Source: Krasilnikovozyma curviuscula (Eukaryota > Basidiomycota > Tremellomycetes > Cystofilobasidiales > Mrakiaceae). Taken from it: DNA of 49,223 nucleotides. The DNA lies in contig MVAQ01000163.1 of the NCBI GenBank assembly GCA_014825775.1, positions 1-49,223 of the forward strand. The letters are read 5' to 3'. How positions within the stretch are numbered: the first letter of the stretch is position 1; each line of letters opens with the position of its first letter. Position numbers and translations under genes: made by a program. Shown piece by piece: positions 2 through 13,105 of this stretch. The notes beneath the pieces were generated by a model that was given only the letters and a program-made list of their open reading frames with translations, did no database searches and had not been told where the DNA came from.

Positions 2-3000
2 GAATTCTCAAGCATAAAAAAATCTGTCGATGAGCGGCTAGCCGTTGAGGCGCACTACGCGATCCACTTGGAACGGATGGAGGCCGAGGTAAAAGATTTT
101 TTGAAGGACGAGGATGTGAGGATCCCAGTGGATTTTGAGTGGAAGTCCATGGAGAGGGCGATGAAGAAGGAGATTTGGCAGACAGCCGATCTGATTCGGC
201 CCACTAGTCTGGTACGGCCTCTTTGCTTTCTCTCCTTCTTGCTGGTGAGATCGTAATTCAATACGGAGGCTGAGTATTGACGCTGGTTGTTCCTCTTTAT
301 AGGGCGCATTCAAACGAATGTCTGCTGCTGTCAACTCATCGGCAATCCTGGCGTTGATGCAGGAAATGAAGGCTCGAGAAGAAAGCGCAGCTCGTATTCT
401 CAAAAAGTCGCAGCTAGCGTCTCGACGTCCAGAACATCCATCGTCGACTCGACTCAACACCCGTCCCTCCTTCAACAAGCCGTCAATAGCAGCCTCGCCA
501 GCTTCGGTTCGAACCATCGCAACGCTATCCCTCTCCAAACCGAAGAAGCCTGCATTCACGTTAACTAAGATCAAGAAGCAGACTGACCTCGACAAGAAAT
601 CTATCACGGGCCCTCAATTTAGCATACAAGGCAAAGTAGTTCAAACCCTCCCTCGCCATTTCAAAAGACACAATGAAACGATCTCACCACCAAAGACTGT
701 CGCTGGCCTTCGAATGTATCTGAAAGAAGCTGTTACTTACCTTAAGTTCTCGCCATTACCTCAGGCGCTGAAGAGCCTCTCCATTCCGACAGAGGAGGCC
801 AACGCTCTCTTGAAAGCTTTCACTCAATCCATCACTATGGAGCTTGAAGAAGCTCCAGACGACCGATTCATATCTGCGTGGGATATCGAAGCCATGCTCA
901 TTGATGCTCGAGGTCCCTCGGAAGAAGCTCGCTGTGGTTCGTGGGGCGATGCGACAGGTTTAGCGATCAACCAACGGTTCTTGTGGTGGGCCGGCGATGA
1001 GCTTAGAAGACGAACCTCAACTGTCATCGCACCCTCTCGCAGTTATTCTCAGTCATCAACCGCTCGTCCTCACTTTGATAATTACGGTCCAGTCACCACC
1101 TGCTCCATCACCCAGCTTGCCAGGTTGGATCAAATCAGCACCTTTACCGATTTCAGAAATCCAGCTTCGTTCTTCCCAAACGCCCGAGCAAAGAAGAGGA
1201 AGATCGTCATGCACGTCGGACCAACAAACTCTGGCAAAACCTTCAACGCTCTTCGCGCTCTCGTCAACGCCAACAGCGGGACTTTCGCTGGACCTCTCCG
1301 TCTGCTCGCTCATGAAGTCTGGGACAGGGTCAACAGAGGGACCGTCGGTGGCATGGACGGTAAAGGCAAGCCATGCAACATGGTTACGGGAGAGGAGGTT
1401 CGAATGACAGATCCGTACACTGAACTTGAGGCGTGCACCGTCGAGATGTTTGACAAGAGCAAACCCATCGAGGTTGCGGTAGTAGACGAGATCCAGATGA
1501 TCTCAGACTCAAGTCGAGGTGGTGCTTGGACAGACGTCGTCCTAGGCTCGACCGGTAAAGAGATTCATCTCTGCGGTGAAGACCGAGCTGTACCTCTCAT
1601 CGAGAAAATGGCTAAGGACACCGGCGACGACATCGTCATCAACCGGTACAACCGTTTGACTACTCTCCACGCATCTAATAAGAGTCTTGAAGGCAACTGG
1701 TCCAACATTCAACCTGGTGATTGTGTTGTCGCGTTCAGCAGACGATACGTCTTTGAGGTCAAGGCCATGATTGAGAAGCAAACGGGTCATAAATGCGCTG
1801 TTGCCTATGGCGGTTTACCTCCTGAAGGCCGTGCTGATCAGGCGCGGTTGTTCAATGATCCTGAAAGTGGCTACGATGTTATGGTTGCTAGTGATGCGAT
1901 CGGAATGGGCCTCAATCTGTAAGTCACATCTTCTATTTCGCTTTGCTTCGGCATAACTGACAAACGAGCTCTCCTCATTGCATCACTTTAGAACTGTCAA
2001 GAGGATTGTGTTTGCATCGCTTCGTAAATTCAATGGAAAGAAGGAAGTTCCACTCTCGCTCAGTCAAATCAAGCAGATCGCAGGTCGAGCAGGTCGGTTC
2101 GGAATGGCACTCGGTGGTGAAGCAACGACATTTCGACAGATCGATCTGCCAATCCTCAACAAGAATTTGCCCTTGGTCATCCATGACCTGACTCGAGCGT
2201 CACTTCTCCCAGCAGCCCAAAAGATGGAAGAACTCTCGAGGATTCTGGGTCCGGAAACTAGTTTGACGACTGTCCGAACGCTCGTCGACAACTTTGGCAG
2301 AACTGACCTCCACTACAAGTTAGATTCACCTTCGACCTTCTGTTCCATCATGCCCGTTATCGAGCGTGCCGCACCTCAGCTCACCTTCAAGGAGAAGAGC
2401 GTTTTAGCTGACACACCGCTCAACACTCGCGACGCTAAAGCAACGGCTGTCTTTGAGAAATACGTCGCTTCTTACGCCAAAGGACAACAGGTCAAGGTCA
2501 TGAAGTGTCTCGGGGACGAGAATTGGTTGGAACTGGCTGCCCATGTCAACAGACGATTCCCCAAGCCCGGTCTCACGAAACAAGAAGATGCTCTTTCCAA
2601 GTTGTTCAGCGGGACCATCCCAAGCGCTGGTATTCCAAAGGACTACTCTTACAATGAGCTTGCCAAGCTCGAGTCTCTCCATGCGGTTCTCGGGTGCTAT
2701 CTGTGGCTTCACATGCGCCTTGCGCTCAACTTCGACGACGCCGAGCTCGTAAGGGCCCTCAAAATTCAGACAGCATACGCGATGGAGGTCGTATTGGAGT
2801 ATATGCGTGTACCGAAGAAGAGTGAGATGGGCACAACGCATGAACATCGCTTGGCCGTGTTCTTGGCCATGAAGGAGGACGCGGCAGCAAGAAAGATTCC
2901 GTACGAGCTCGGAGGGCAGCTGGGCATGCAGATGCTCCAGGGCTTCTCGGAAGAGGAACTGAAGGGCAGTGCAGGAGATTCGAGGACGCAGTTCTTCCAG

Positions 3001-3222
3001 CCGCTCAAACAGACGGTCAAGGCGTCCACCTGGTCTACAAAGGGCAAGATCAACAATTGTGAGTTGCTCACCTCCTTTTTTCCCTCTCTCGTATGCTTCT
3101 TTTGTTAAACCTCCTGCTTTTTCTGTCATCAAGTCTTCAATTCTGTGGTCACCACAAAGTAGTTTTACATACACCTCTCACATATAGACTATACTGCATC
3201 TCATCTGCATCGAGCTTCTTGA
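2..3222 (+). CDS. SUV3: Mto1 C-terminal region fused in frame to Suv3 mitochondrial RNA helicase (5' partial)
   Basis: Model: exons <2-211, 303-1918, 1992-3058, 3188-3222; phases agree and give 976 codons from the window edge. The Suv3 part is clear: Walker A GPTNSGKT (about nt 1218-1241), VVDEIQM as the DExH box (about nt 1480-1500), VASDAIGMGLNL across intron 2, and QIAGRAGRFG (nt 2075-2104). Suv3 is the ATP-dependent helicase of the mitochondrial RNA degradosome. The first ~95 codons look instead like the C-terminus of Mto1/GidA, the mitochondrial tRNA uridine-34 modification protein: an AVEAHYAIHLERMEAEV helix, then a PVDFEW..M segment, then IRPTSLGAFKRM. No stop separates the two parts. 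A Ser/Arg-rich, targeting-peptide-like stretch (nt 360-530, ending near RTIATLS) lies between them. The gene starts upstream of the window. If the last intron (3059-3187) is retained, the protein ends at 3108. The helicase call is firm; whether one fused protein or two products are made is open. Confidence 0.9.
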
Positions 3223-3381: not shown

Positions 3382-4302
3382 TCAGTTACCCTTCATCGCC
3401 TTCAACCCAGACCTCGTCTTCGAGCCGGGCCACGATTCCTTGATGACATCTGCAGATGCAGAGTTCCTGAACGGGAAAGACGCCGTCCTCTTGTCCGCGC
3501 CAGTTGTCTTTGAGAGGTAAGGCTTCTCTGCGCCAAATACGAGAAGCCAGGATCCCCAGAGGCCGAAGAAAGTCGTGTAGAGCGAAGTGATGGTTGATAA
3601 TGCGCCGGCTTTGTTGGTTGAGTAGGCGATGAGGGCGATGAGCAGCATTACTGGCACCAGGAACGCGAGCGGGGATGCTCGTGACGGCAGGTATGACGGC
3701 GGCTCGGGAGAATGGGGTGGTGGTTGGGATGTCAAGAGGAAGAGCATGGCGGCTATAGCAATCAAGCTGGTGGAGTTAAAGGATGAGTTTATGTGATCTG
3801 GCATGAATATGAAAGCGAGGAGAAGGTCGTACCTGCATCCCAAAACCAGAGAGAGGAACCATTCGAGCTCTGTAGTCTGTATCGACCAGCCTCGATCACC
3901 ATTGTCACTCAAGAAAGATAGGATACGAGGGTAGAGGAGGAGAGGCAAGGAGATGATAACCAGCCTAGAAATGAACAGACAATATGCGTGAGCTTGCCTG
4001 CAGGAATGAAGGAAACGTAGCTGTTCAACCCACGAGCCACTTAACGACCAAGCATAGACGGATATCGCATCCAGTCCCTCGTCCTTGAAGAGGTCTGGTA
4101 GGTCACCGTCATCTGCTGGTGGCATTCGCTGAGGTGGTGGTGGGTACGACGAGTGCTTGGACGAAGTGGAATGGCCTGTCGAGTCGAGTTCCTCCAGGGC
4201 GATATCTGGTGTAGATTTTTTTAAGGATCCAGCGTACAGCGAGGTCGACATGTGTTTATCAGAATCGAGAGGGTTTATGATCATGGTCGCTGGAGGCGAC
4301 AT
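3382..4302 (-). CDS. multi-pass membrane protein of unknown function (306 aa)
   Basis: A single uninterrupted ORF, which is unusual among intron-rich neighbours. The first ~110 residues are polar and rich in Ser, Pro and Asp. About five hydrophobic segments follow: near residues 115-140, 150-175, 183-200, 222-243 and 250-272. The tail is basic and polar. A possible GTACG..AG intron inside the second hydrophobic stretch (3832-3766) would break the frame, so I kept the ORF whole. I recognise no family motif. It is convergent with the SUV3 gene, with about 160 bp between the ends. An organellar or ER membrane location is inferred only from the hydrophobic profile. Confidence 0.6.
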   Translation of the reverse strand: MSPPATMIINPLDSDKHMSTSLYAGSLKKSTPDIALEELDSTGHSTSSKHSSYPPPPQRMPPADDGDLPDLFKDEGLDAISVYAWSLSGSWVEQLRFLHSCRQAHAYCLFISRLVIISLPLLLYPRILSFLSDNGDRGWSIQTTELEWFLSLVLGCRYDLLLAFIFMPDHINSSFNSTSLIAIAAMLFLLTSQPPPHSPEPPSYLPSRASPLAFLVPVMLLIALIAYSTNKAGALSTITSLYTTFFGLWGSWLLVFGAEKPYLSKTTGADKRTASFPFRNSASADVIKESWPGSKTRSGLKAMKGN

Positions 4303-5100
4303 AGGCTGCTGCGCTGGATATCGCTTGTGATGTGAGGTCGATCACTTTTCCCAAAAGTCAATCCCATTTCTTGCTACGTGGAGCTTTTCACTCTACAGAA
4401 TCATTATTGGATATCTGATGTGCAGGCGGTGGCTCAGCGGCGACACAATCACCTCGACAGCCTCACGCTTAATCGATTCACGAAACGAGCTGGCGACGTT
4501 CGACAAGATGAACTCCCCCCTCCTCTGACCACCCGAGCCGATGAAGTAACTATGGCGCCTATCCTAAACTTCGGGGAAAATCAGCTGTCTTGAGGCTTCA
4601 GGGGAGACCTTACAGGGACAACAGACGTCAGTCAGAGCCTGAAACAAAGAGCATGAACTGGATCTTACACTCTGCTTCTACTTTTTCTTTGGCTCCTACT
4701 GAAGTATTGTGAGGTGAGAGTATCTTCTTACCGCCCTGGGGACTTAATACATGATCACATCTGCGGCAGCGCTGTGTCTGACGACCGCAGAAGGTTCGTT
4801 TGGCCTTGAGTTCCAAGTTGCGTACACCGCGCTCCGGCTACTATTTGCGCAGACAAGGAGCGAAAAGCGCCTCACGTGAATGACTGATATCACGCTTGCA
4901 ATATTACACATTTAATGAACACAGTGAAGCTGGAGAAAAATCTAGTTATATCCAGAGGAGGAGGAATCGTACCCAGCGCGAGCAGATGATAGATATTAAG
5001 GGGGCGCACTAGGCAGTAAAATTATTGAAAGTGCCAAAGAAAAAGAAAGACAGGAACCGATAGAGGGAGAAGATTGTTTAAAAAATTACACATTGTTCAA
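4303..5100. other. intergenic, 798 bp
   Basis: It lies upstream of the membrane-protein gene that starts at 4302 and downstream of the Boi-like gene that ends at 5101, both on the minus strand. It should hold the promoter of the first and the 3' UTR of the second. Short ORFs at 4378-4593 (+) and 4628-4816 (-) show no domain, intron structure or compositional support. I see nothing else that I can name. Confidence 0.5.

Positions 5101-10253: not shown

Positions 10254-13105
<2,852 letters not shown>

Follow-up and report, generated by a model that had tools for sequence, protein, structure and literature searches.

The window, that is the whole stretch of 49,223 nucleotides analysed, is contig C70 of a 22.4-Mb genome of 387 contigs. 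Its first base is the contig edge and lies inside the last part of a gene of the MTO1/MnmG family. The gene in the window has 973 codons and three introns and ends with a TAG stop at position 3162. The encoding of MTO1 and SUV3 as one fused gene is well supported, and its features are the following.

2 to 211, + strand: MTO1 coding exon, still open at the contig edge, for the C-terminal helical domain of MTO1/MnmG (TIGR00136, jointly with 303 to 374; PF13932 weak)
212 to 302, + strand: first intron, 91 nt, GT-AG, phase 0
303 to 374, + strand: end of the MTO1 C-terminal domain (TIGR00136; AlphaFold helix at exon residues 12-39, modest confidence)
375 to 704, + strand (357 to 704 when counted from the aligned Met): linker between MTO1 and SUV3, acid-poor and rich in Ser, Arg and Lys (pLDDT below 50 at exon residues 41-124)
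510 to 521, + strand: R-T-I↓A, candidate processing-peptidase site, proposed cut after nt 518
705 to 1918, + strand: N-terminal region of SUV3 with its DEXQ helicase domain (DEXQc at 1161-1649)
1919 to 1991, + strand: second intron, within SUV3, after GMGLNL
1992 to 3058, + strand: SUV3 exon with the helicase C-terminal domain and SUV3_C
3059 to 3133, + strand: last intron, GT-AG
3134 to 3162, + strand: last exon, including the TAG stop

A preliminary description of this DNA had claimed a run free of stops from Mto1 into Suv3. This holds once the intron at 212-302 is removed, as exon 303-1918 is then open in the frame of 2-211, but not for the unspliced DNA, in which the frame meets a stop at 254-256. 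If the intron were kept, MTO1 would end at that stop minus its last helices. The Ser/Arg-rich stretch of the same description falls inside the linker, whose 116 codons (nt 357-704) include 14 Ser, 9 Arg and 15 Lys. The linker is open in the fusion frame only; the other five frames contain 5, 4, 5, 2 and 10 stops. Of 5000 linkers with shuffled bases, 42 were without a stop.

The identity of both halves was given by the domain matches. In a protein scan, residues 5-94 of the product matched positions 527-614 of the 616 positions of TIGR00136 (mnmG_gidA) at E 1.6e-7, which is in agreement with the claim that the first ~95 codons are Mto1/GidA-like. The PF13932 match reached 23.1 bits, under its cut-off of 27.1, and the MnmG chains of the PDB aligned to the MTO1 part at E 0.22 at best. 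In the genome search with PF13932, even at E 10, the MTO1 C-terminal domain of the window was not found. As TIGR00136 is matched up to position 614 and the PF13932 and PDB matches are weak, the MTO1 part is divergent yet reaches the end of the family model. By its domains, the MTO1 half is predicted to be a tRNA-U34-modifying enzyme of the MnmG (GidA) family. The SUV3 part matched DEXQc_Suv3 (E 3.4e-60), Helicase_C and SUV3_C, a complete helicase domain set as had been described, and was placed within fungal SUV3 in the tree. Both MTO1 and SUV3 act on mitochondrial RNA. The profile search of the genome also gave matches to TrmE_N, the family of the MTO1 partner (MSS1/MnmE). Matches to the RNB domain occur on three contigs (C119, C46 and C100), and one of these RNB-domain proteins could be the partner of SUV3.

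The upstream FAD domain of MTO1, for which the preliminary description had proposed to look, lies at the end of contig C52 rather than in the window. The GIDA family gave four matched stretches in the genome, all on C52 between 51,298 and 52,742, and this contig ends at 53,176 with the last MTO1 exon still open. The exon model comprises 51,068-51,218, 51,299-51,481, 51,594-51,971, 52,062-52,175 and 52,243 to the contig end. It begins with MIRRGARTQPFSHSLSARRQHNRRAYATS, a putative presequence with a candidate R-x-Y↓A site. The joined MTO1 pieces of C52 and C70 are colinear with the MTO1 of Phaffia (43% identity, 679 residues), of which about 11 residues fall at the break between the two contigs. 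The SUV3 domain and the junction DNA have one genome match each, both on C70, and the GIDA stretches represent one gene. Because these genes occur singly and the MTO1 pieces are colinear with the Phaffia protein, C52 and C70 are most likely neighbours with an unsequenced gap between them. Given this link, the MTO1 domain set would be complete, with FAD/GIDA on C52 and the C-terminal helical domain on C70. Among the best 120 of 7998 matches to the MTO1 of this genome, no named Tremellomycete MTO1 was present, and reptile and mucoromycete ones were; fast divergence or loss are possible reasons.

Relatives were sought among proteins with residues 1-500 of the window product as the query. MTO1 and SUV3 parts were together in three of the best 120 of 3628 matches (P0001, P0003 and P0004), so that the same fused model, which the preliminary description had suggested seeking in relatives, is found in Phaffia and in two further sequences. 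P0001 from Phaffia rhodozyma, with 1505 aa, has GIDA, GidA C-terminal and SUV3 domains and is the whole fusion. In P0003 and P0004 the MTO1 C-terminal domain leads into SUV3 in a single frame, and the sequences stop at or just past the place of the window intron 1919-1991. At the position of the first intron of the window, both have extra residues between the SL or SI and the GA codons (VRLPV...SHQ and VSIRL...RPQ), which start with V, end with Q and contain no stop. Since the V...Q ends fit GT...CAG read in frame, this stretch reads, from the protein letters, as a retained counterpart of intron 212-302, identical to it in position and phase. A second search compared the Phaffia MTO1 half with proteins of about 830-2600 aa, and among its best 120 of 484 matches the Pfam column gave SUV3 domains in P0001 only. 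Unfused fungal MTO1 (MnmG family) and SUV3 have the same family domains, including the MTO1 C-terminal and SUV3 domains, but are separate genes among the matches listed. The 15 named SUV3 proteins of Tremellales, Trichosporonales and Filobasidiales among the best 120 of 3628 carry the MTO1 Pfam domain in no case and gave no BLASTP match to it above chance.

The gene of Phaffia is like that of the window in its MTO1-then-SUV3 order, complete domains and similar junction (RPSF...APSVRAFSTSLPL in P0001 and RPSF...PASVRTIATLSLS in the window), with MTO1 halves that are 43% identical. The displayed name of the P0001 record, 'NAD/FAD-utilizing protein possibly involved in translation', covers the MTO1 half only and does not mention the helicase.

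The SUV3 tree was built from 55 sequences (54 chosen from the 120 listed, and the window) and rooted at the midpoint. The four fused SUV3 sequences and P0002 form one clade with support of 100/99, in which the inner pairings are weaker (window with P0003, 85/70; Phaffia with P0002 and P0004, 92/88). P0002 counts neither for nor against the fusion because its listed sequence begins inside the linker. The clade groups with Agaricomycetes (98/93), apart from Naganishia, Cryptococcus, Kwoniella and Vanrija; thus the SUV3 tree alone does not put the fusion within Tremellomycetes. As a guess, from Phaffia as the sole named member, the lineage of the fusion is Cystofilobasidiales. In the tree of the MTO1 half (46 hand-chosen rows, with meta310, which is without the search motif, dropped), the window and Phaffia each form a long branch whose placement is not resolved, and the window MTO1 is 43% identical to that of Phaffia as against 45-48% to many other basidiomycete MTO1 proteins. 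In BLASTP of the window MTO1 C-terminal domain against the 120 proteins of the SUV3 search, the best fused match was P0004 at E 0.12, and Phaffia and P0003 were not matched. The domains of Phaffia, P0003 and P0004 match one another at about 1e-17 to 1e-26, and that of the window is therefore the most divergent of the fused set. The MTO1 half thus does not bear out a common origin. A single origin rests on the SUV3 clade, the common junction and the common intron place, from which one fusion event in the ancestor of the fused SUV3 clade would be the simplest reading.

The junction was compared over the linker, measured from the aligned Met (window nt 357) to the first SUV3 helix common to all four proteins. 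It has 116 residues in the window, 106 in Phaffia, 114 in P0003 and 136 in P0004, with net charges of +17, +13, +2 (barely basic) and +12 and acid-free runs of 50, 50, 74 and 68 residues, respectively. A loose motif, R-x-[YFIL]-[AS]-[ST], which is the textbook motif widened by letting in Ile after the sequences had been seen, occurs in all four junctions (window SVRTIATL; Phaffia SVRAFSTS; P0003 SRSFSTS and ARRYATE; P0004 GRRYSSK). It stands 51, 51, 53 (and 76) and 63 residues from the aligned Met, and was present in all four linkers at once in 3 of 20,000 joint shuffles. The strict motif R-x-[YF]-[AS] is found in three of the four, and the window fails by its Ile. Among unfused proteins, 16/113 SUV3 (vs 6/883 internal segments) and 58/118 MTO1 (vs 3/826) have the loose motif within their first 70 residues. 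The strict motif occurs in 44/118 MTO1 (vs 9/826) and in 11/113 SUV3 (vs 49/883), so that it is hardly enriched at the N-termini of the latter.

Among the named Tremellomycete SUV3 proteins, the loose motif was found within the first 90 residues in 9 of 15 and was absent from 6. The distance from this motif to the P-loop is 199-228 residues in seven of the nine, all seven of Tremellales, 230 in P0008 and 136 in P0080. In the fused proteins it is 236 (window), 207 (Phaffia), 219 and 196 (P0003) and 232 (P0004). The comparison of these distances places the junction at about the old SUV3 presequence position, and it lends support to the idea, raised in the preliminary description, that an ancestral Suv3 start is buried there.

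A presequence classifier was trained on unfused N-termini in 50-residue segments; the AUC across families was 0.81-0.82, with moderate sensitivity (0.22 and 0.39 at 5% false positives). The top segment falls in the junction in all four fused proteins, of which only that of Phaffia also includes the MTO1 N-terminus. As controls, 513 segments were taken from seven other ORFs of the window, each of at least 300 aa and presumed non-mitochondrial. Without the motif feature, the junction score of P0001 is reached by 1 of these 513, that of P0003 by 1, that of P0004 by 4 and that of the window by 25. When the control ORFs were added as negatives, the top segment stayed in the junction in two of the four (window and P0004) and moved elsewhere in P0001 and P0003; of the 513 held-out segments, 10 then reach the best score of P0001, 4 that of P0003, 2 that of P0004 and 10 that of the window. 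The classifier may partly read disorder. The AlphaFold model of exon 2 (38-row alignment, mean pLDDT 76, pTM 0.58) has a helix at residues 12-39, the end of MTO1, with pLDDT of about 53-71, and the SUV3 fold from about residue 133. Residues 41-124 have pLDDT below 50 and contain the R-T-I↓A site (exon residues 70-73), and the junction is thus predicted to be disordered. Overall the junction appears to resemble a buried mitochondrial presequence, for which the evidence from motif and composition lends support without being decisive; the re-test with control ORFs weakened the classifier result.

The locus probably encodes a tandem mitochondrial precursor that is cut by the mitochondrial processing peptidase. 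A complete MTO1 gene would have been joined in frame, most simply once, to a SUV3 gene whose own presequence was retained, giving one nuclear gene for a precursor of the order presequence, MTO1, buried presequence and SUV3. The presequence at the N-terminus of MTO1 would carry the whole chain into the matrix, where the processing peptidase would remove it and also cut the buried site near nt 518. The cut would release a normal SUV3 and leave a short basic tail on MTO1, and the outcome would be a fixed 1:1 supply of the tRNA-U34-modifying enzyme and the mitochondrial RNA-decay helicase, which may be of benefit. We infer the cut, the separate products, the import via the first signal and the single origin of both halves. 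Of the mechanisms named in the preliminary description, cleavage fits the junction best, and nothing specific was found here in support of internal starts or alternative splicing.

The fusion might instead stay whole as a two-headed matrix enzyme, in which tRNA wobble modification is coupled to helicase-driven RNA surveillance and the junction is a flexible tether. This reading is tentative and the less likely one, even though the fusion persists through a deep SUV3 clade, the long stretch predicted as disordered suits independent heads, and MTO1 and SUV3 are both generally known to work on mitochondrial RNA. A tether needs no processing motif, whereas the junction has a candidate one near the old presequence position, and passages of PMC8847149 and PMC4381221 report that Arg5,6 and Rsm22-Cox11 are cut. 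It is unlikely that an uncut MTO1-SUV3 inspects and modifies mitochondrial tRNA wobble bases while its helicase arm passes faulty or excess RNA to the degradosome; if true, a whole fungal lineage would have retained tRNA modification and RNA decay in covalent linkage.

An improbable reading is that the locus gives two messages, an internal transcript or start of its own being the additional or sole source of SUV3, and that the open frame is a by-product of gene crowding. In its favour are the in-frame Met residues directly before the basic stretch (MQEMKAREESAARILKK) and the stop at 254-256 of the unspliced first intron, which would end an MTO1-only product. However, the frame is open in all four sequences despite the divergence of the linker, and the retained stretch in P0003 and P0004 is free of stops. 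The conserved internal Met was rejected as specific evidence for a SUV3 start, because 23 of 90 unfused MTO1 proteins also have Met at the aligned position (Leu in 66 and Val in 1) and it is therefore not specific to the fusion. An artefact of assembly or gene model is very improbable: the window does begin at a contig edge and MTO1 is split over two contigs with a gap between, but the junction is wholly within one contig, the same junction is seen in three other sequences, and the junction DNA and SUV3 domain occur at a single place in the genome, with the GIDA stretches belonging to one gene.

The proposed cut tandem precursor has counterparts in other fungi. A passage of PMC8847149, reporting Friedl et al. 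2020, describes Arg5,6 of S. cerevisiae as two mitochondrial enzymes made from one precursor by an internal processing-peptidase cut. MTO1-SUV3, like the precursors of the Arg5,6 type, has two mitochondrial proteins in one open frame; its enzymes are different, and the cleavage is experimental in Arg5,6 but inferred here. The same passage (PMC8847149) gives internal targeting-like stretches and cleavage motifs for Atp25, Etp1, Rsm22-Cox11 and others, and S. pombe Rsm22-Cox11 is described in part of PMC4381221 as cut after import. Rsm22-Cox11 and Etp1 of S. pombe are like MTO1-SUV3 in being fused nuclear-coded mitochondrial proteins (excerpts of PMC8847149 and PMC4381221), but they are unrelated protein pairs and no common origin is implied.

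No description of the MTO1-SUV3 pair was found in open-access full text, and no functional work on Phaffia P0001 in the literature searched. In the search for Phaffia gene fusions, the available portion of PMC4393869 has 'gene fusion' once, in a reference title; it also states that transcript evidence was weighted highly in the gene models of the Phaffia genome, an annotation from which P0001 may come. The zebrafish Mto1 paper, in the portion available, names SUV3 only as a polyadenylation regulator (PMC8096277). Fused mitochondrial precursors are thus a known kind, and the MTO1-SUV3 pair, its clade-wide retention and its apparent buried presequence are undescribed in the literature searched. 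The gene adds an apparently undescribed pair to the small set of fused mitochondrial precursors known from fungi. It also suggests a route by which a fusion may survive, in which the second protein has its import signal buried within the chain, where cleavage may come to take place. Phaffia is a culturable species in which it can be asked whether the supply of MTO1 and SUV3 has to be matched, or tRNA modification and RNA decay are physically coupled.

Other composite MTO1 models were seen among the best 120 of 484 matches to the Phaffia MTO1 half. Many Pezizomycotina records have MTO1 and VPS45 (PF00995) in one model, and MTO1 is combined with an SSB-type domain (PF00436) in several records of Chaetomiaceae and others. 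Of 14 such models, 13 have the FAD motif of MTO1 well inside the protein, which makes MTO1 the later part; these may be adjacent genes that gene prediction has merged, or additional real fusions. Elsewhere in the window, an ORF at 3382-4341 on the - strand, membrane-protein-like by eye, is convergent with SUV3, with about 220 nt between the two stops. Another at 10798-12177 on the - strand has a long poly-Gln run and Cys/His pairs, which presumably resemble C2H2 zinc fingers.
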